Assembly: GCF_001468265.1 (NCBI RefSeq)
Contig: NZ_LNRZ01000007.1
Coordinates: forward strand, 62,001 to 126,000
Origin: Sphingopyxis sp. H050
GTDB taxonomy: Bacteria; Pseudomonadota; Alphaproteobacteria; Sphingomonadales; Sphingomonadaceae
Length of the DNA: 64,000 bases
Reading direction: 5' to 3'
Part shown: piece by piece, positions 51,799-59,327 of the stretch
Numbering within the stretch: the first letter of the stretch is position 1
Layout: each line of letters opens with the position of its first letter
The notes under the pieces: model-generated
The model's input: only the letters and a program-made list of their open reading frames with translations
Database searches by the model: none
What the model was told of the DNA's origin: nothing
Made by a program: the position numbers and the translations under genes

Positions 51799-52545
51799 TC
51801 AGCATCGCGGCAAAGTGGCTAGTTCGAGAGGCGTCACCGCGGACTCTCTGCGCTCCGAATAGCGGTCGACGAGCTGTTCGGCGTGGCCGCGGATGAGCAC
51901 GGTAAAGCGGACAAGCTCTTCGGCGACATCGACAATGCGGTCGTAGTAGCTCGATGGCAACATACGGCCTGATTCGTCGAATTCCTGATAGGCCTTGGCG
52001 ACGCTCGACTGGTTGGGAATGGTGATCATCCGCATCCAGCGGCCGAGGATGCGCAGCGTGTTGACGCTGTTGAACGATTGCGACCCTGCCGATACCTGCA
52101 TCACGGCAAGCGTGCGCCCCTGCGTCGGGCGGAGGCCCTTGTAGGCGAGGGGGAGGTGATCGACCTGCGCCTTCATGATGCCGGTGATCTGGCCATGGCG
52201 CTCAGGGCTGCACCAGACCTGACCCTCGGACCAGATGGAATGCTGCCGCAGCTCCTCGACCGCCGGATGATCATCGTCGGCGATCTGATCGGGCAAGGGG
52301 AGGTCGGACGGATCGAAGATGCGGGTCTCACAGCCGAAGAGCTGGAGGAGGCGCGCGGTCTCCTCCACGACAAGGCGCGAGAAGGAGCGCTCGCGCAAGG
52401 AGCCATAAAGCAGCAGAATGCGAGGTGCCGGATCGAGCGGCCCGAGGCCAAGCGCTGGCCGCGCGCGAATATACTCAGAGCTGAGCGCCGGGAGATGGTC
52501 GGCATCGCTGAGACCGCGCAGGCGCGTGAAACTATGTTCGGTCAT
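51799..52545 (-). CDS. arsH: ArsH NADPH-dependent flavoprotein
   Basis: This 248-residue protein has the FMN-binding start [20 protein letters not shown] and the ArsH block [53 protein letters not shown]. ArsH proteins oxidise trivalent methylarsenicals and reduce flavins or quinones. It is the last gene of the arsR-arsC-arsC-acr3-arsH operon, 5 bp after the transporter gene. Confidence 0.94.
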
Positions 52546-52550
52546 GTGTG

Positions 52551-53615
52551 TCAGGCTTCCGAAGGCGTGCTTGCCGGGAACCAGCGGCGTCCGAGGCGGA
52601 ACGCGACGCTGACGAGCAGGATGAGGACGGGCACTTCGACGAGTGGGCCGATGACCGCCGCAAAGGCCACGGGCGAGGCAAGACCGAAGGCGGCGATCGC
52701 GACCGCGATAGCGAGCTCGAAATTATTGCCGGCGGCCGTGAAGGCAACCGCTGTCGTTCGCGGGTAATCGGCTTCGATGAGCTTGCCCATCCAGAAGCTG
52801 ATGACGAATTGCACGACGAAATAGATGGTGAGCGGGATGGCGATCCGGACGACGTCGCCGGGGATGGTGAGAATCTCGCTGCCCTTGAGGCTGAACATCG
52901 CAACGATGGTGAATAGTAGCGCAACGAGCGTGATCGGACCGATCTTCGGCAGGAAGCGGGTCTCGTACCATAGCTCGCCCTTCGCGCGTGCGAGAAATCG
53001 GCGCGTGAGATAACCCGCAAGGAAGGGGATGCCGAGATAGATGAGCACGGCCTCGGCGATCGTCCAGAAGCTGACGTCGATGACGCTGCCTTCGAGACCG
53101 AAGAGTGGCGGCAGAAATGACAGGAAGAACCAGGCGTAGACGCTGAAGAAGAGGATCTGGAAGATCGAGTTGAAGGCGACGAGCGCCGCGACATATTGAT
53201 TGTCGCCCTTCGCGAGCTGGTTCCATACGATTACCATCGCGATGCACCGCGCAAGACCGATGAGGATCAGCCCCGTCATATATTCGGGTCTGTCCGCGAG
53301 GAAGATGACCGCGAGAGCGAACATCAGAACCGGTCCGATAATCCAGTTCTGGATGAGCGAGATTGCCAGAACACGCTTGTCTTCGAATACGCGCGGCAAC
53401 TCGTCGTAGCGCACCCTGGCGAGCGGCGGATACATCATCAGAATGAGCCCGATGGCGATCGGGATATTCGTCGTTCCGATCGACATCGCATCGATCGCAC
53501 CGGGGAGGCTCTTGAACAGCGAGCCCAGGAGGACGCCGAGCGCCATCGCAAGGAAGATCCAGAGCGTCAGATAGCGGTCGAGGAAAGAGAGGCGTTCGCG
53601 CTTTGCGGCAGTCAT
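52551..53615 (-). CDS. acr3: ACR3 family arsenite efflux transporter
   Basis: This 354-residue inner membrane protein has ten transmembrane helices. The catalytic cysteine of ACR3 lies in [22 protein letters not shown], and the second conserved block reads [21 protein letters not shown]. It exports As(III) produced by the two reductases upstream. The ATG at 53615 follows GAAGGGA and fits the family N-terminus [16 protein letters not shown]; longer frames overlap the reductase gene. Confidence 0.95.
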
Positions 53616-53625
53616 GACGATCCCT

Positions 53626-54057
53626 TCAGGCCTGGACGCGGTTGCCGTCGGCGTCGACGACCTGTTCGCCGTCTTCCTTGGCGAAGGCACCGAGCTGGCG
53701 GGCCGGGAGAATGTCGAGCACCGCTTCGGACGGGCGGCAAAGTTTCACGCCCCGCGACGTGATGACGAGCGGGCGATTGATGAGCACCGGATGCGCCATC
53801 ATCGCATCGACGAGCGCGTCGTCGCCGAGGTCGGCGTCGTCGAGGCCGAGTTCTGCATAGGGCGTGCCCTTTTCGCGGAGCAAGTCGCGCGGGTTCATAT
53901 CGGCGCGTTCGATCAGTTGCTCGAGCAAGGCGCGCGAAGGCGGTGTCTTCAAATATTCGACGACATGCGGTTCGATGCCTGCATTGCGGATGAGAGCCAG
54001 CGCGTTGCGCGACGTCCCGCATTCAGGGTTGTGATAGATGATGATGTCGGCGGTCAT
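53626..54057 (-). CDS. arsC: Arsenate reductase ArsC, glutaredoxin type
   Basis: This 143-residue protein has the active site [12 protein letters not shown] (Cys13) and the ArsC signature [20 protein letters not shown], as in the glutaredoxin-coupled enzyme of E. coli plasmid R773. It reduces arsenate to arsenite using glutathione and glutaredoxin. The ATG at 54057 overlaps the previous stop (ATGA). The operon therefore carries two unrelated arsenate reductases. Confidence 0.94.
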
Positions 54058-54575
54058 GCGCCTGCCTCCCGATCGCCCGTTGCACCCTCGGTGCGGCCGA
54101 TGTCCTTCAACTTTCGCGCCATCGCCATCTCGTCGATGCTTTCGTGCGGTAGCGCGAGGAAGAGTGCGATCCGGTTCGACATGTAATGGAGCGCGCGTTC
54201 GAACGCTTCGCGCTGGCCCGGACCTTCGACCGCGGCGGGATCTTCGATCCCCCAATGCGCGGTGGTCGGGTTTCCCGGCCAGATCGGGCAGGTTTCGCCC
54301 GCTGCGTTGTCGCAGACGGTGAAAATGAAATCGAGCTTCGGCGCAGCCGGGCCCGAAAACTCGTCCCAACTCTTCGACCGGAGATCGCGCGTATCGAACC
54401 CGAGTTCGCAGAGCAGTTCGAGTGCGGCGGGATGCACGTCGCCCTTGGGAAAGCTGCCAGCGCTATAGGCCCGGAATCGGCCTTCCCCCATGCGGTTCAG
54501 CAGGGCTTCGGCGAGGATCGAGCGTGCACTGTTACCCGTGCACAGGAACAGCACATTATAGGTCTTCTCTGTCAT
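54054..54575 (-). CDS. arsC: Arsenate reductase ArsC, low-molecular-weight phosphatase type
   Basis: This 173-residue protein has the LMW phosphatase P-loop VLFLCTGNSARS and the DFIFTVCDNAAGETCPIWPG segment holding the resolving cysteines of thioredoxin-coupled ArsC. It has a C-terminal extension of about 35 residues compared with the S. aureus enzyme. The ATG at 54575 follows TGAGGCG and lies 8 bp after arsR. Confidence 0.94.
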   Translation of the reverse strand: MTEKTYNVLFLCTGNSARSILAEALLNRMGEGRFRAYSAGSFPKGDVHPAALELLCELGFDTRDLRSKSWDEFSGPAAPKLDFIFTVCDNAAGETCPIWPGNPTTAHWGIEDPAAVEGPGQREAFERALHYMSNRIALFLALPHESIDEMAMARKLKDIGRTEGATGDREAGA

Positions 54576-54583
54576 GTCGCGCC

Positions 54584-54928
54584 TCAGCCGTTGCAGGAAA
54601 TGTTGGCGAAAATATCGGCGCACATATCGGGCGCGCCCTGGCAGCAGTCCTTCATCAGGAAGGTGAGCAGGCGGCTCATGCCGTCATAGTCGGCGCGGTA
54701 GTGGATCAACCGGCTCTCACGTTCGGACTGGACGAGCCCTGCGCGTTCGAGCGTCGCTAGGTGATGCGACATGGTCGATGGCGGTACTTTGGCCTGCTCG
54801 GCGATCGTTCCCGCGATCATGCCATCGGGGCCGGCGGTGACCAGCATACGGAAGACGGCGAGACGGGTCTCGTGAGCGAGTGCGCCCAACGCGTCCACGG
54901 CCCAAACCTGGATACTCATGTCAGTCAT
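54584..54928 (-). CDS. arsR: ArsR family arsenic-responsive repressor
   Basis: This 114-residue winged-helix repressor has the recognition region VPPSTMSHHLATLERAGLVQSERESRLIHYRA. It lacks the CxC motif of E. coli ArsR in the DNA-binding helix. Instead it has cysteines 95, 96 and 103 near the C-terminus (MKDCCQGAPDMCADI), like the Cys95-Cys96-Cys102 site of Acidithiobacillus ArsR. It represses the operon until As(III) binds. The ATG at 54928 is the start that gives a normal-length protein. Confidence 0.93.
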   Translation of the reverse strand: MTDMSIQVWAVDALGALAHETRLAVFRMLVTAGPDGMIAGTIAEQAKVPPSTMSHHLATLERAGLVQSERESRLIHYRADYDGMSRLLTFLMKDCCQGAPDMCADIFANISCNG

Positions 54929-54939
54929 AAGAATCGACC

Positions 54940-54957
54940 TTTCTAGATGTATCGAAA
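54940..54957 (-). promoter_or_regulatory. Possible ArsR operator
   Basis: Just upstream of arsR, TTTCTAGATGTATCGAAA shows partial dyad symmetry with AT-rich arms (TTTC/GAAA). Position and composition fit an ArsR site, but there is no second copy to support it. Confidence 0.4.
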
Positions 54958-55115
54958 TATAGCATCGGAGCGGGGCGCGCAAATTATATTTCGAAAATTG
55001 TGGAATTATGAAATCGCCATGGAGGGGTTGCGGGCAACCATATGCGTCGCGCTTGCGCAAGGCATGAGGCTTGCAGCGAGGTTTCACCGCGACGCACGGC
55101 CACCTTCGGCGGCCG

Positions 55116-55193
55116 CAGAGGGAGAGGAGAGAGGGGCCAGGTGACGGGTTGAAACCGGGAGAGAGGCTTCCGGACCCGTCGCGGAGACACGCC
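55116..55193 (+). promoter_or_regulatory. Structured 5' leader RNA ahead of the DUF932 gene (copy A)
   Basis: The leader has the box CAGAGGGAGAGG (55116-55127), then a 9-bp outer stem GTGACGGGT/ACCCGTCGC (55141-55149 with 55174-55182). An inner stem CCGGGA/TTCCGG encloses GAGAGGC, and GGAG follows at the start of the ribosome binding region, 11 bases before the ATG. The same box, stem order and GGGAGAGAG loop occur ahead of the parB-like gene, with compensatory base changes. It resembles the idea of the Rfam radC motif of alphaproteobacterial mobile DNA, which I cannot check here. Confidence 0.7.
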
Positions 55194-56387
55194 ATGACAC
55201 TTCATCCCAGCACCCTCGCCCGCAATTCGTCGCCGGGCTACAAGGTCGACATCTCGCGCGGCCAGCGCATCGGCCGCGTCTCGTCCGAATGGTTCTCGCG
55301 GCCCGACGACGAGCGCTATCTTTCCCTCTCCGACCTTCATGATGCCGTGCGCGCCCGGGTCGACACCGCGACCGCGCGCACCGTCGAAACGCGCGCTATC
55401 CGCGTCGTCGCAGCGGCCGACGAGCCCGAACGGCTGAGCCTGCTCCTTCCCGATCGCGAGGCGCCCGTTGCGCCCACGCACTGGTCGTTCGGGCAAATGT
55501 GCAGCCTCGTCGGCGCGCCGTCCGGCTATCTGCGCCAGCTTCCCGCCGCCCTGGCGGGTATCAACATGCAGCACGGCCTGCTCGCCCATCGCGGTGAATT
55601 GGTGAAGACGCTCGAGACAGGCGACGGGCGCACCGAGCTGCGGGCCGTGACCGGCCCCGACTATGGCCGCATCTGGGATCACGAACTCGTCGCCGCGGTT
55701 ATGAAGATCGCAGGCAATGGCACCGGCGATACACGGTGGAAGGTGCCGGGGCTCCTCGACTGGTCGACGATGCACCACAATCCCTTCGTCGAGGTCACGA
55801 AGGATACGACGACGCTCTATGCCAGCGATCGCGACGTCTTCGTCTTCCTTGTCGATGACGCCAACCCGATCGAGGCCGGTCGCCTGCCCAATGGCGATCC
55901 CGATCTCTTCTTCCGCGGCTTCTATTGCTGGAATAGCGAAGTCGGGTCGAAAGCCCTCGGCATGGCGACCTTCTATCTTCGCGCCGTCTGCATGAACCGT
56001 AACATCTGGGGCGCCGAGGGTTTCGAGGAAATCAGCATCCGGCACAGCAAGTTTGCGGCAGGACGCTTCGCGCAGGAAGCGGCGCCCGCGCTCGAACGCT
56101 TCGCCTCGTCGTCGCCCGGGTCCTTCATGAACGGGATCAAGGCGGCTCGCGCGGCGATCGTCGCGCGCGATGATGACGATCGGCGGACCTTCCTGCGCAA
56201 ACGCGGCTTCTCGAAGGGCGAAAGCGATCGGATCATTCGCAGCGTGCTGCAGGAAGAGGGGCACCCGCCCGCATCGATCTTTGACTTCGTGCAGGGGATC
56301 ACCGCGCTGGCCCGCGAGCGTCCGCATCAGGACGGACGGCTCGAGCTCGAAGCCAAGGGGGCGAAACTTCTGGCCTCGGTACACTGA
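55194..56387 (+). CDS. DUF932 domain protein
   Basis: This 397-residue protein fits the DUF932 family carried by plasmids and phages. Conserved segments are HWSFGQMCSLVGAPSGYLRQLPA, TLYASDRDVFVFLVDD, FFRGFYCWNSEVGSKALGMATFYLRAVCMNRNIWGA and ISIRHSKFAAGRF. The biochemical role is unknown; family members occur beside ParB-like and antirestriction genes in conjugative elements. The ATG at 55194 follows the structured leader and GGAG. The parB-like gene follows in the same orientation. Confidence 0.87.
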   Translation: MTLHPSTLARNSSPGYKVDISRGQRIGRVSSEWFSRPDDERYLSLSDLHDAVRARVDTATARTVETRAIRVVAAADEPERLSLLLPDREAPVAPTHWSFGQMCSLVGAPSGYLRQLPAALAGINMQHGLLAHRGELVKTLETGDGRTELRAVTGPDYGRIWDHELVAAVMKIAGNGTGDTRWKVPGLLDWSTMHHNPFVEVTKDTTTLYASDRDVFVFLVDDANPIEAGRLPNGDPDLFFRGFYCWNSEVGSKALGMATFYLRAVCMNRNIWGAEGFEEISIRHSKFAAGRFAQEAAPALERFASSSPGSFMNGIKAARAAIVARDDDDRRTFLRKRGFSKGESDRIIRSVLQEEGHPPASIFDFVQGITALARERPHQDGRLELEAKGAKLLASVH

Positions 56388-56426
56388 TCCTGCCTCGCGT
56401 TCGCCGCCGGCGCGGTCCTGTCCCTT

Positions 56427-56508
56427 CAGAGGGAGAGGGCTGCGCCGGAGCCATGACGGGCTGGGAGCCGGGAGAGAGTCTCGCGGCGGCCTGTCATGGA
56501 GAAGCATC
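56427..56508 (+). promoter_or_regulatory. Structured 5' leader RNA ahead of the parB-like gene (copy B)
   Basis: The leader has the box CAGAGGGAGAGG (56427-56438), then an 11-bp outer stem CCATGACGGGC/GCCTGTCATGG (56451-56461 with 56489-56499). An inner stem GCCG-G-GAGA/TCTC-G-CGGC is closed by a GAG loop. GGAG, the ribosome binding site, overlaps the 3' end of the outer stem, so pairing could limit translation. Spacing from box to stem is within one base of copy A. Confidence 0.7.
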
Positions 56509-57822
56509 ATGACGAAACAGGCAAAAATCACGCTCAGCGGCGCGCGGGAAATCCCCTTCAACGCCCTCGTTCTGAGCCAGGCCAATGTGCGGCGCGTGAA
56601 AGCCGGGGTGTCGATCGACAGCCTGGCGGCGGACATCGCGCGGCGCGGATTGCTCCAGAGCCTGACGGTTCGCGCGCAGCGCGACGAGGAGGGCAAGGAG
56701 ACCGGGCATTTCGAAGTCCCGGCCGGCGGCCGCCGCTTCCGCGCACTCCAGATGCTGGTGAAGCAGCGGCGCCTGGCGAAGACCGAGCCCGTCCCGTGCA
56801 TCGTCCGCGACGATGACGCCGTGTCGGCCGAAGAAGATTCGCTCGCCGAGAATGTCCACCGCGAGCCGCTGCATCCGCTCGATCAGTTTCGGTCGATGCA
56901 GAAGCTCGTCGAACAGGGCAGCGACGTCGAAACGATCGCGGCCACCTTCATGGTCACGCCGGCGGTCGTGAAACAGCGTCTCAAGCTCGCCGAGGTCTCG
57001 CCCAAGCTGCACGACATCTATGCCGAGGACGGCATGACGCTCGAACAGCTGATGGCCTTTTCGGTGTCGAGCGATCACGCAAGGCAGGAGCAGGTGTGGG
57101 ACATGCTCGCCTCGAGCCACACCCAGCAGCCCTGGTATATCCGCGCGCGCCCGACCGAGGACAAGGTGCGGGCATCGGACAAGCGCGTTCTGTTCGTCAC
57201 GCTCGACGCCTACCGCGAAGCCGGCGGACATATTCTTCGCGATCTTTTCGAAAGCGATGACGGCGGCTGGCTTGAGGACGTCGCGCTGCTCGACCGGCTG
57301 CAAGCCGAGAAGCTCGAAGCCGAAGTGGCCGGTATCGCGGCCGAAGGCTGGAAGTGGGTCGAGACCGCGGTTGACTTCCCTTATGGCCACACTTTCGGTC
57401 ACCGTCCGATCGATGGTGTTGCGGCCGAGACGAGCGCCGAGGACGAAGCCCGGATCGAAGCGTTGCGCGAAGAAGCCGACCGGCTCGAAGACGAATGGGC
57501 GGGGGCCGAGGACATCCCCGATGAAATCAGCGCCCGGATCGAGGCGATCGACGAAGAGATCGCCCCGCTCGTCTCGAAGCCGCTGATCTACGATCCTGAA
57601 GAAATGGCGATCGCCGGGACCTTCGTCAGCATCGATGTCGACGGGTCGCTGCATATCGAACGCGGCTTCGTGCGGCCCGAGGACGAGCCGCAAGCGCCCG
57701 CCGAGGATGGGGCCTCCGAGGGCGAGGGTGCAGCCGGCGACGCGATCGACGATGACGTGCAGGGGGCTGGGACCAGCGAGATGACCGTGGCGGTGGCGAT
57801 CGTCACCGCGAACTGGCGATAG
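56509..57822 (+). CDS. ParB/RepB-like protein, truncated at its 3' end
   Basis: This 437-residue protein has an N-terminal ParB nuclease/CTPase-type domain with the box PAGGRRFRALQ (71-81) and DSLAENVHREPLHPLDQF, then the HTH region IAATFMVTPAVVKQRLKLAEVSPKLHDIYAEDG. Members of this plasmid/ICE family are usually clearly longer. About 17 residues before the stop the coding context changes to sequence complementary to the RND pump gene, so the native C-terminal part is lost. It may still be expressed, being behind an intact leader. Confidence 0.82.
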   Translation: MTKQAKITLSGAREIPFNALVLSQANVRRVKAGVSIDSLAADIARRGLLQSLTVRAQRDEEGKETGHFEVPAGGRRFRALQMLVKQRRLAKTEPVPCIVRDDDAVSAEEDSLAENVHREPLHPLDQFRSMQKLVEQGSDVETIAATFMVTPAVVKQRLKLAEVSPKLHDIYAEDGMTLEQLMAFSVSSDHARQEQVWDMLASSHTQQPWYIRARPTEDKVRASDKRVLFVTLDAYREAGGHILRDLFESDDGGWLEDVALLDRLQAEKLEAEVAGIAAEGWKWVETAVDFPYGHTFGHRPIDGVAAETSAEDEARIEALREEADRLEDEWAGAEDIPDEISARIEAIDEEIAPLVSKPLIYDPEEMAIAGTFVSIDVDGSLHIERGFVRPEDEPQAPAEDGASEGEGAAGDAIDDDVQGAGTSEMTVAVAIVTANWR

Positions 57823-59225
57823 AATTCGCCGGTGATCCCGGTGAGGAAGGTCGTCGGCACGAACACCGCGCAGAGCACGAGCACGATCGCGACCAGCGCG
57901 CCCGACACCTCGTCCATCGAGGTGTGCGCGGCTTCGCGGGGGCTGAGGCCGTGCTCCATGTTGCGCTCGACATTCTCGACGACGACGATCGCGTCGTCGA
58001 CGACGATGCCGATCGCGAGCACCAGCCCGAACATCGACAGCGTGTTGAGCGAATAGCCGAGCCCGGCGAGCACCGCGAAGGTGCCGATCAGCGACACCGG
58101 GATCGCGATGACCGGGATGATCGCGGCGCGCCAGCTTTGCAGGAAGACCAGGATGACGATGACGACGAGCAGCATCGCTTCGAGCAGCGTCTTCTGCACC
58201 GCGGTCATCGATTCGCTGATGAACTCGGTCGGGTTCCAGATGATCTTGTACTCGAGCCCCTTGGGAAAGCTCTTCGCGGCGTCGGCCAGCTCGGCCTTGA
58301 TCCCCTCGGCGGCGGCGAGCGCATTGGTGCCCGGCCGCTGGGTGACCCCCATGATGATCGAATCCTGGCCCGACAGATAGGCGTTCACGCCATAATCCTC
58401 GGCCCCCAGCTCGACGCGCGCGACGTCGCTGAGGCGCGTGATCGCGCCGTCGGGCGCGGTGCGCACGATGATGTTCGCGAATTCATCGGCGGTCTTGAAG
58501 CGGCCCTGCGTCTCGACGCTCAGCTGGTGCGCGGCGCCGGTGTCGAACGGCGGCTGGCCGACGGTGCCGGCGGCGACCTGGACATTCTGCGCGCGCAGCG
58601 CCGACACGATGTCGCCCGCGGTGAGGTTCAGTTCTGCCGCGCGGCCGGGGTCGATCCACACGCGCATCGCATAGTCGCGCGCGCCGAACACCTGCACGTC
58701 GCCGATGCCATCGACGCGGGTCAGCCGGTCCTTGAGCTGGGTCAGCGCATAGTTGGAGACATAGCTGCGATCGAGCGAGCCGTCGGGCGACAGCACATTG
58801 ACCGCCATCAGCCACGAGGGCGAGGTCTTGCGCACGACGACGCCCTGCCGCCGCACTTCCTCGGGCAGGCTGGGTTCGGCGAGCGCGACGCGGTTCTGGA
58901 CGAGCACCTGCGCGGTATCGAGGTCGGTGCCGAGCTTGAAGGTGACGGTGATCGTCACCCGCCCGTCGCCGGTCGATTGCGACGACTGGTACAGCATGTT
59001 GTCGACGCCGTTGATCTGCTGCTCGATCGGCGCCGCGACGGTGTCGGCGACGGTCTCGGCCGAGGCGCCGGGATAGTTGGCGCTGACCGTGACGGTCGGC
59101 GGGACGACCGCGGGGAATTGCGATACCGGCAGCCCGAAATAGGCGAAGGCGCCGACGATCGTGATGATGATCGCGATCACGCCCGCGAAGATCGGGCGGC
59201 GGATGAAGAAATGGCTGAGACGCAT
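57588..59225 (-). pseudogene. RND multidrug efflux permease, 3'-truncated
   Basis: From the ATG at 59225 (after GGAGG) about 485 residues match the inner membrane permeases of the AcrB/MexF type: MRLSHFFIRRPIFAGVIAIIITIVGAFAYFGLPVSQFP, NYPGASAETV, and helix 4 with VLAIGIVVDDAIVVVENVERNMEHG. The match ends abruptly after FYRQFAVTIATATVISLV near 57771. The frame then continues for about 60 codons antisense to parB until 57588. Such pumps are normally about 1050 residues, so more than half is missing and the pump cannot work alone. Confidence 0.88.
57766..57775. other. Recombination junction between parB-like gene and RND permease
   Basis: To the left the plus strand encodes the acidic C-terminal region of the ParB-like protein (EGAAGDAIDDDVQG). 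To the right the minus strand encodes intact RND permease sequence. Both genes are broken here and face each other 3' to 3'. No insertion sequence, direct repeat or tRNA is visible at the point. Confidence 0.8.
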
Positions 59226-59327
59226 GGCGGGCCTCCTCGGCCCGTCGGGGCCGGCAAGATGGTGCAATCGGGTGGGCGAGGCCGCGCCGGACGGGGCCGG
59301 CGCGGCTCGCGGATCGGATTCGCGGAC

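Follow-up and report, generated by a model that had tools for sequence, protein, structure and literature searches.

The window analysed here, a 64,000-nucleotide stretch of Sphingopyxis sp. H050 DNA, carries two copies of a structured leader that, on comparison with relatives in other genomes, appear to represent a new family of cis-acting translational leaders standing before establishment-type genes of Alphaproteobacteria. A shared factor would co-ordinate the translation of these genes, likely after the element that bears them has entered a new cell; we put the probability of this reading at roughly 60%. The RNA family itself is real, with a well-supported structure and gene set; Rfam 15 does not include it, and no description of it was seen in the open-licence PMC literature searched. 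Covariation in the helices, together with sense placement before start codons, would class them as a structured cis-regulatory leader RNA.

Both copies lie where the first-pass annotation had placed them, each ending on an ATG (Table 1), and they share one layout: CAGAGGGAGAGG, then 14 or 15 nt of spacer as had been counted before, TGACGGG, an outer helix, a purine-rich bulge on the 5' side, an inner helix capped by a loop of five bases, the closing strands and, finally, GGAG and ATG. The compensatory changes named in that annotation are present, T55149-A55174 of copy A corresponding to C56461-G56489 of copy B and G55141-C55182 to A56453-T56497, as is the partial burial of the ribosome binding site of copy B, whose GGAG has a predicted unpaired probability of 0.48 against 0.81 in copy A. 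The annotated span of 55116-56508 holds both leaders, but it also includes the DUF932 gene, and copy B runs on to 56511; the elements proper are the two leaders of about 85 nt, each ending on the start codon of the DUF932 or the ParB-like gene. Within the window, CAGAGGGAGAGG-N(4-34)-TGACGGG is found at two places, a number that none of 100 dinucleotide shuffles reached, indicating that the two occurrences are beyond chance. Relative to shuffles, folding of 55110-55196 (copy A) gave z = -2.58 and was equalled or bettered by 2 of 200; the corresponding values for 56420-56512 (copy B) were z = -2.77 and 1 of 200.

Table 1. Leaders A and B and the genes behind them in the window. Bit scores are those of models R1 and R2, both of which have leaders A and B in their training sets.
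Feature	Position	Strand	Remarks
Leader A	55116..55196	+	Ahead of DUF932 gene; R1 73.0 bits, R2 69.3 bits; order: 5' purine box, linker, two-part hairpin, Shine-Dalgarno, ATG
Leader A, 5' purine box	55116..55127	+	Conserved
Leader A, hairpin	55141..55182	+	Outer helix 55141-55149 with 55174-55182
Leader A, inner helix	55155-55161 with 55167-55173	+	Loop 55162-55166
Leader A, Shine-Dalgarno GGAG	55183..55186	+	Abuts outer helix; predicted open (0.81)
DUF932-related protein, 397 aa	55194..56387	+	PF06067 20.8 bits, under the 23-bit cut-off
Leader B	56427..56511	+	Ahead of ParB-like gene; R1 90.2 bits, R2 76.3 bits
Leader B, 5' purine box	56427..56438	+	Conserved; 39 nt past DUF932 stop codon
Leader B, hairpin	56451..56499	+	Outer helix 56451-56461 with 56489-56499; pairs read from the sequence, minimum-energy fold slightly different near the loop
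Leader B, inner helix	56467-56474 with 56480-56487	+	One mismatch; loop 56475-56479
Leader B, Shine-Dalgarno GGAG	56498..56501	+	First two bases paired within outer helix
ParB_N protein, 437 aa	56509..57822	+	3' end cut short; preceded by leader B

Plasmid homologues of the DUF932-related protein are annotated as DUF932, and the ParB_N protein is 86.8% identical over 394 aa to a Sphingopyxis plasmid protein and mostly 50-60% identical to other plasmid homologues. Because leader B follows the DUF932 stop codon so closely, both genes may be on one transcript, with leader B inside it. Within 57588-57822 of the window the ParB-like frame aligns with a longer homologue from genome G122 to about codon 420; past that point it is antisense to an RND-pump-like frame on the minus strand (57588-59267), which appears cut short where the ParB-like homology stops. 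Two broken genes may have been fused at this junction, or the junction may be an assembly join. The minus strand of 51799-54930 holds arsenic-resistance-like frames, as read from translations only, including ArsH-, ACR3- and ArsC-like proteins and an ArsR-like regulator.

An exact-pattern scan of a species-genome collection returned 117 stretches, 15 of which were leaders by eye and the rest chance pattern matches. These leaders came from Sphingopyxis, Rhizobium, Mesorhizobium, Palleronia and Frigidibacter, and from uncultured Sphingomonadales, Caulobacteraceae, Rhodospirillales and another alphaproteobacterium; Sphingopyxis records hold leaders near-identical to those of the window. Model R1, built with alignment A1 from 12 leaders, matched 23 of 337 alphaproteobacterial genomes (20 of 253 genera), more than once in 15 of the 23 and five times in the window's own genome. 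The broader model R2, built from 51 leaders, had matches in 34 of the 398 Pseudomonadota genomes scanned, every one of the 34 alphaproteobacterial, which makes the family far larger than the pair first described. Of two gammaproteobacterial plasmid stretches that hold a ParB homologue, L197 and L198 (Pseudomonas and E. coli), neither gave an R2 match up to E 1, and the leader may be absent outside Alphaproteobacteria, a point that is weakly tested by these scans. A scan of viral contigs gave three, presumed to be plasmid-like, on each of which a complete leader precedes a ParB-like, DUF932 or ArdC frame. Weak extra R2 matches lie in two plasmids (W01 at 114648, 23.4 bits; W08 at 105971, 11.4 bits). 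At L152 7955-8043, in the window's own genome, there is a leader with a G+C-rich, shifted stem (R2 59.6 bits); a 702-aa ParB-like gene has its leader about 0.5 kb further downstream, and the frame following the L152 leader falls in no cluster. In Rfam 15 the window had no match at gathering score, and 20 of the 182 leader loci gave four matches up to E 5, none above gathering score.

Similarity between leaders of different genes is 0.776 (n = 16) within one element, slightly above the 0.751 (n = 568) seen between elements (p = 0.02), and same-gene leaders compared across elements score 0.756 (n = 406). Given the slight excess and the same-gene value, the spread looks old rather than a product of recent copying. 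The earlier proposal that leaders were copied as units therefore finds weak support, and recent copying within an element weak support as well.

The genes behind the leaders belong to several families. Clustering was applied to 146 matches (75 from one R2 set and 71 of 73 others), 141 of which have a frame behind. ParB-like (61), ArdC (22) and DUF932 (22) genes together account for 105 of these, and the others are a mixed group with DUF6878 (11), strawberry-notch helicases (10), SNase (4), an unidentified 128-aa family (3) and single cases (8); matches before helicase, SNase, DUF6878 and antirestriction genes are the weaker ones. Pfam, run on one or two members per cluster, named ArdC (PF08401), SNase, DUF6878, strawberry notch and, at two loci, the antirestriction family PF03230, which we take to be ArdB/KlcA; PADLOC gave no match on eight proteins. 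ATG columns end both models and draw matches to an ATG, so only the gene behind is independent evidence in the following counts: 67 of 71 matches outside R2 training (71 of the 73 listed) end exactly on an ATG opening a frame of at least 40 aa; 54 of 55 R2 matches of at least 30 bits, most of them from training loci, lie in sense directly before a start codon; and 16 of 20 weak matches below 25 bits end on the ATG of a frame, nine of these in the strawberry-notch helicase cluster.

Searching 289 genomes with the ParB protein gave hits in 26, amounting to 36 homologues at E up to 1e-30. Among the 30 of these that were fetched as loci, a leader stands at the start codon in 21, including every one of at least 50% identity; the nine without a leader are all at most 48% identical. 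No leader was found, up to E 0.5, at three more distant ParB homologues of the window's own genome, nor was one found before the DUF932 genes of the rhizobial-type plasmids L188, L190 and L193. Other hairpin elements occur in the same modules. The DUF736 gene has its own GCGCCATCGGGAATGGTCCCGA element and the DUF2493 gene a CCGCGAGAGGCGCGG-like element, each close before the Shine-Dalgarno, and terminator-like CCCGGC..GCCGGG hairpins precede DUF6117, DUF932 and hypothetical genes of Rhizobium-type plasmids; these were observed in L187, L188, L190, L193 and L195, within 110 nt before the DUF736, DUF2493, DUF6117 or DUF932 starts.

In alignment A3, which comprises 51 distinct leaders aligned by sequence, 94.0% of 811 helix cells are paired, a percentage that is biased upwards because the first 12 leaders were chosen by eye as whole leaders and the others were gathered with structure-aware models. 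Ten of the 16 pairs, and 61 cells, have changed on both sides; none of 500 shuffles reached any of five measures, and slid versions of the alignment were 36-46% paired. The first-pass description of a conserved, structured leader with compensatory changes, common to unrelated genes, is thus borne out by the covariation of this wider set of divergent sequences. Under a tree-based null, in which column substitutions were re-placed on the tree, 5 of 16 pairs were significant with 51 leaders and 4 of 18 with 109, and with neither set was any helix pair significant after correction over all column pairs. In the alignment of 109 leaders the four top-scoring of 3486 column pairs all correspond to base pairs in the model. 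In the helix cells of the 109 leaders, A.C was observed 34 times against 89 predicted from column composition, and G.U, tolerated rather than enriched, 356 times against 393; among the 51 leaders, G.U makes up 108 of 157 non-Watson-Crick cells. Avoidance of A.C but not of G.U identifies the mRNA strand as the probable folding strand, and, as judged by comparison, this strand folds and its helices are kept by covariation.

The conserved unit is about 80-100 nt long, with an abrupt 5' limit at the box and a 3' limit on the start codon. The 130 columns upstream of the box hold at most 0.21 bit each in 51 leaders, and with no conserved column there a shared upstream promoter or operator was rejected. 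The consensus consists of a 5' purine box AGAG..AGAGG, a two-part hairpin with GAGAG on the loop side, a Shine-Dalgarno and ATG; box positions 4, 5 and 8-11 are conserved in 106-109 of 109 leaders and each of the five loop-side columns in 95-105. Consensus folds contain no pairing partner for the box. Its pairing with the 16S 3' end (an assumed sequence) was -8.9 kcal/mol against -9.3 for shuffled boxes, and ribosome stand-by through such pairing was rejected because shuffled boxes pair equally well. Conservation of the box without a pairing partner or a special fit to 16S suggests that a trans-acting factor may read it.

The Shine-Dalgarno is predicted to be less accessible in the leaders than elsewhere, with a mean unpaired probability of 0.19 in 51 leaders and 0.34 in controls (one-sided p = 9e-6), the controls being 150 sampled of 287 mechanically called frames from the same loci, some of which will not be genes. 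The value is below 0.5 in 46 of the 51 leaders and at least 0.5 in 5; when the helix is extended, two Shine-Dalgarno G residues become paired, one in 44 and the other in 46 of the 51, and the leader loop is predicted open (0.91). This difference from controls favours control of translation initiation, and the open Shine-Dalgarno of copy A indicates that occlusion alone would not be the whole story. A second subtype, about 95-105 nt long, was recovered through weak matches in front of strawberry-notch helicase, antirestriction and DUF6878 genes; it retains the box and a GAGAGAG run, and its stem is longer and different. RNAalifold on 12 such leaders (10 helicase, 1 antirestriction, 1 DUF6878) returned only 4 pairs, so the subtype is described here rather than proven; single folds gave a long hairpin in most.

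At least 5000 plasmid records contain a homologue of the window ParB-like protein. The homologue in an IncF plasmid sits between ssb and psiB and points toward traM, a neighbourhood we take to be the leading region of F. Six leader-bearing plasmids had a relaxase placed, and in five of these (pAtCFBP6624, pRL3b5, IRBL74_p, MesoLj131a2 and pP73B) the leader module is co-directional with the relaxase gene and about 19-42 kb upstream of it, a layout that was judged relative to the relaxase gene, and in which T4SS or other genes intervene and co-direction alone has an even chance. The module of pRL7 does not fit, and two further plasmids gave no relaxase match by PF03432, the one profile used. According to Samuel et al. 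(PMC11541004), anti-restriction and other anti-defence genes are concentrated in leading regions, whose opposite, lagging side of oriT usually holds the relaxase. We infer that the leader-bearing modules, which resemble such regions, would be leading-region (establishment) genes of conjugative plasmids. On pRL3b5 a ProQ/FinO-family gene (L193 18134-18628) lies close upstream, on the opposite strand, of the leader-bearing ParB gene, and its product is a possible candidate for a trans-acting factor.

Ribosomal-protein and other autogenous leaders also place a hairpin beside or over the Shine-Dalgarno and control translation in cis. The present family differs from these in that one leader is common to several unrelated mobile-element gene families. 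The closest published parallel found seems to be EGeRS1 of the Bacillus plasmid pLS20, a structured element rich in inverted repeats that is repeated before the ribosome binding sites of ardC and other establishment operons and is described as preventing expression from upstream promoters (PMC8708921). The leaders likewise repeat directly upstream of establishment-type genes, including ArdC. However, EGeRS1 is 400-600 bp long, against 80-100 nt for the leaders, and its hosts are Gram-positive rather than alphaproteobacterial; the two are set apart here by description, not by sequence comparison, and the EGeRS1 paper (PMC8708921) presents no evidence as to whether the element acts as RNA or as single-stranded DNA. 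Frpo/ssi elements resemble the leaders in being repeated hairpins before leading-region-type anti-defence genes, but they are described as promoters with -35 and -10 sequences that act as folded DNA (PMC11541004), whereas the leader folds as the mRNA strand and ends at the start codon. The radC RNA motif (RF01754) is given as a candidate structured RNA in Proteobacteria (PMC2864571). Genome G455 (L183-L186) contains four RF01754 radC RNAs, and leaders of the present family on another contig. The motif is reportedly listed as probably cis-regulatory.

The link to the radC RNA motif raised by the first-pass annotation proved to be wrong. Both precede mobile-element genes, and one leader-bearing plasmid stretch (L189) also has a gene annotated radC, but RF01754 is unmatched in the window at gathering score, and up to E 10 over 54900-56700; it occurs in one of 15 leader-bearing genomes, there on another contig, and is a different RNA of 149 positions with unlike sequence (one copy read), leaving practically no chance that the leaders are members. 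An ssDNA promoter of the Frpo/ssi type, in which the transferred strand would fold and be read by RNA polymerase before second-strand synthesis, would account for the kind of genes involved, since Frpo elements precede leading-region genes (PMC11541004), and the module layout could make the transferred strand the template. We consider it very improbable, as an element that abuts the Shine-Dalgarno and ends at the ATG could hardly accommodate a -10 and a start site in between, and wobbles of G.T on a template strand would appear as A.C, the very combination that is depleted when G.U is not. The same slim chance is given to a DNA-level operator, with a regulator binding the inverted repeat as double-stranded DNA: the repeat and fixed purine box can be read as DNA, and a DNA-binding repressor is described for the establishment genes of p576 (PMC8708921), but a DNA palindrome would not favour the high share of G.U among non-Watson-Crick cells, nothing is conserved upstream, and position is fixed to the start codon. 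Moreover, 26 of 79 leaders with enough upstream sequence follow, within 400 nt, a co-directional frame of at least 150 aa (median gap 50 nt), also arguing against an operator and in favour of a translational leader.

It is unlikely, in our estimate, that the leader acts by itself as a ribosome stand-by site or a fixed damper, giving low, co-ordinated translation with no trans factor. The purine box is Shine-Dalgarno-like and the hairpin is predicted to hold the Shine-Dalgarno, as such a leader would need, but the box pairs no better than its shuffles with the assumed 16S end, and six nearly invariant box letters are beyond the need of a plain damper. Autogenous control, in which a single protein of the module (such as the ParB-like or the DUF932 protein) would bind its own and neighbouring leaders in a manner unrelated to transfer, is in our view distinctly improbable; it gains from the ParB-like genes being the commonest bearers and from the presence of leaders at all of the closer ParB homologues fetched, and loses from genome G262, where the only R1 match (in a leader scan, not a ParB-gene scan) precedes a DUF932 gene, and from the two window proteins, in which neither Pfam nor NCBIfam identified an RNA-binding domain.

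In the reading we prefer, that of translational leaders with a shared factor, the same leader stands, as the comparison shows, before several unrelated gene families lying near each other on plasmids and other elements. The hairpin would lower translation by keeping the Shine-Dalgarno in or against the stem, resulting in a damping of translation gene by gene, often within a shared transcript. A common factor, protein or RNA, might read the box and the loop, and the anti-restriction, ParB-like, DUF932 and helicase proteins might then be translated in concert, most probably right after the element arrives in a new cell. A stronger version, which we offer tentatively and consider possible but doubtful, is a plasmid-wide translational switch, in which one factor on the GAGAG box and loop would silence establishment mRNAs in a settled donor and, being absent from a fresh recipient, would allow all of the proteins to be made at entry.

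Entry-timed switching of anti-defence genes is known for few systems, among them the ssDNA promoters of F-type plasmids and the repressor of p576. The leader predicts a trans-acting factor, and would provide a sequence handle on entry-timed expression for rhizobial, agrobacterial, sphingomonad and rhodobacterial plasmids, where it could be used for listing establishment genes, including uncharacterised ones such as DUF932 and DUF6878. If the switch were true, it would amount to zygotic induction at the level of translation, and the RNA family would define an alphaproteobacterial establishment regulon.
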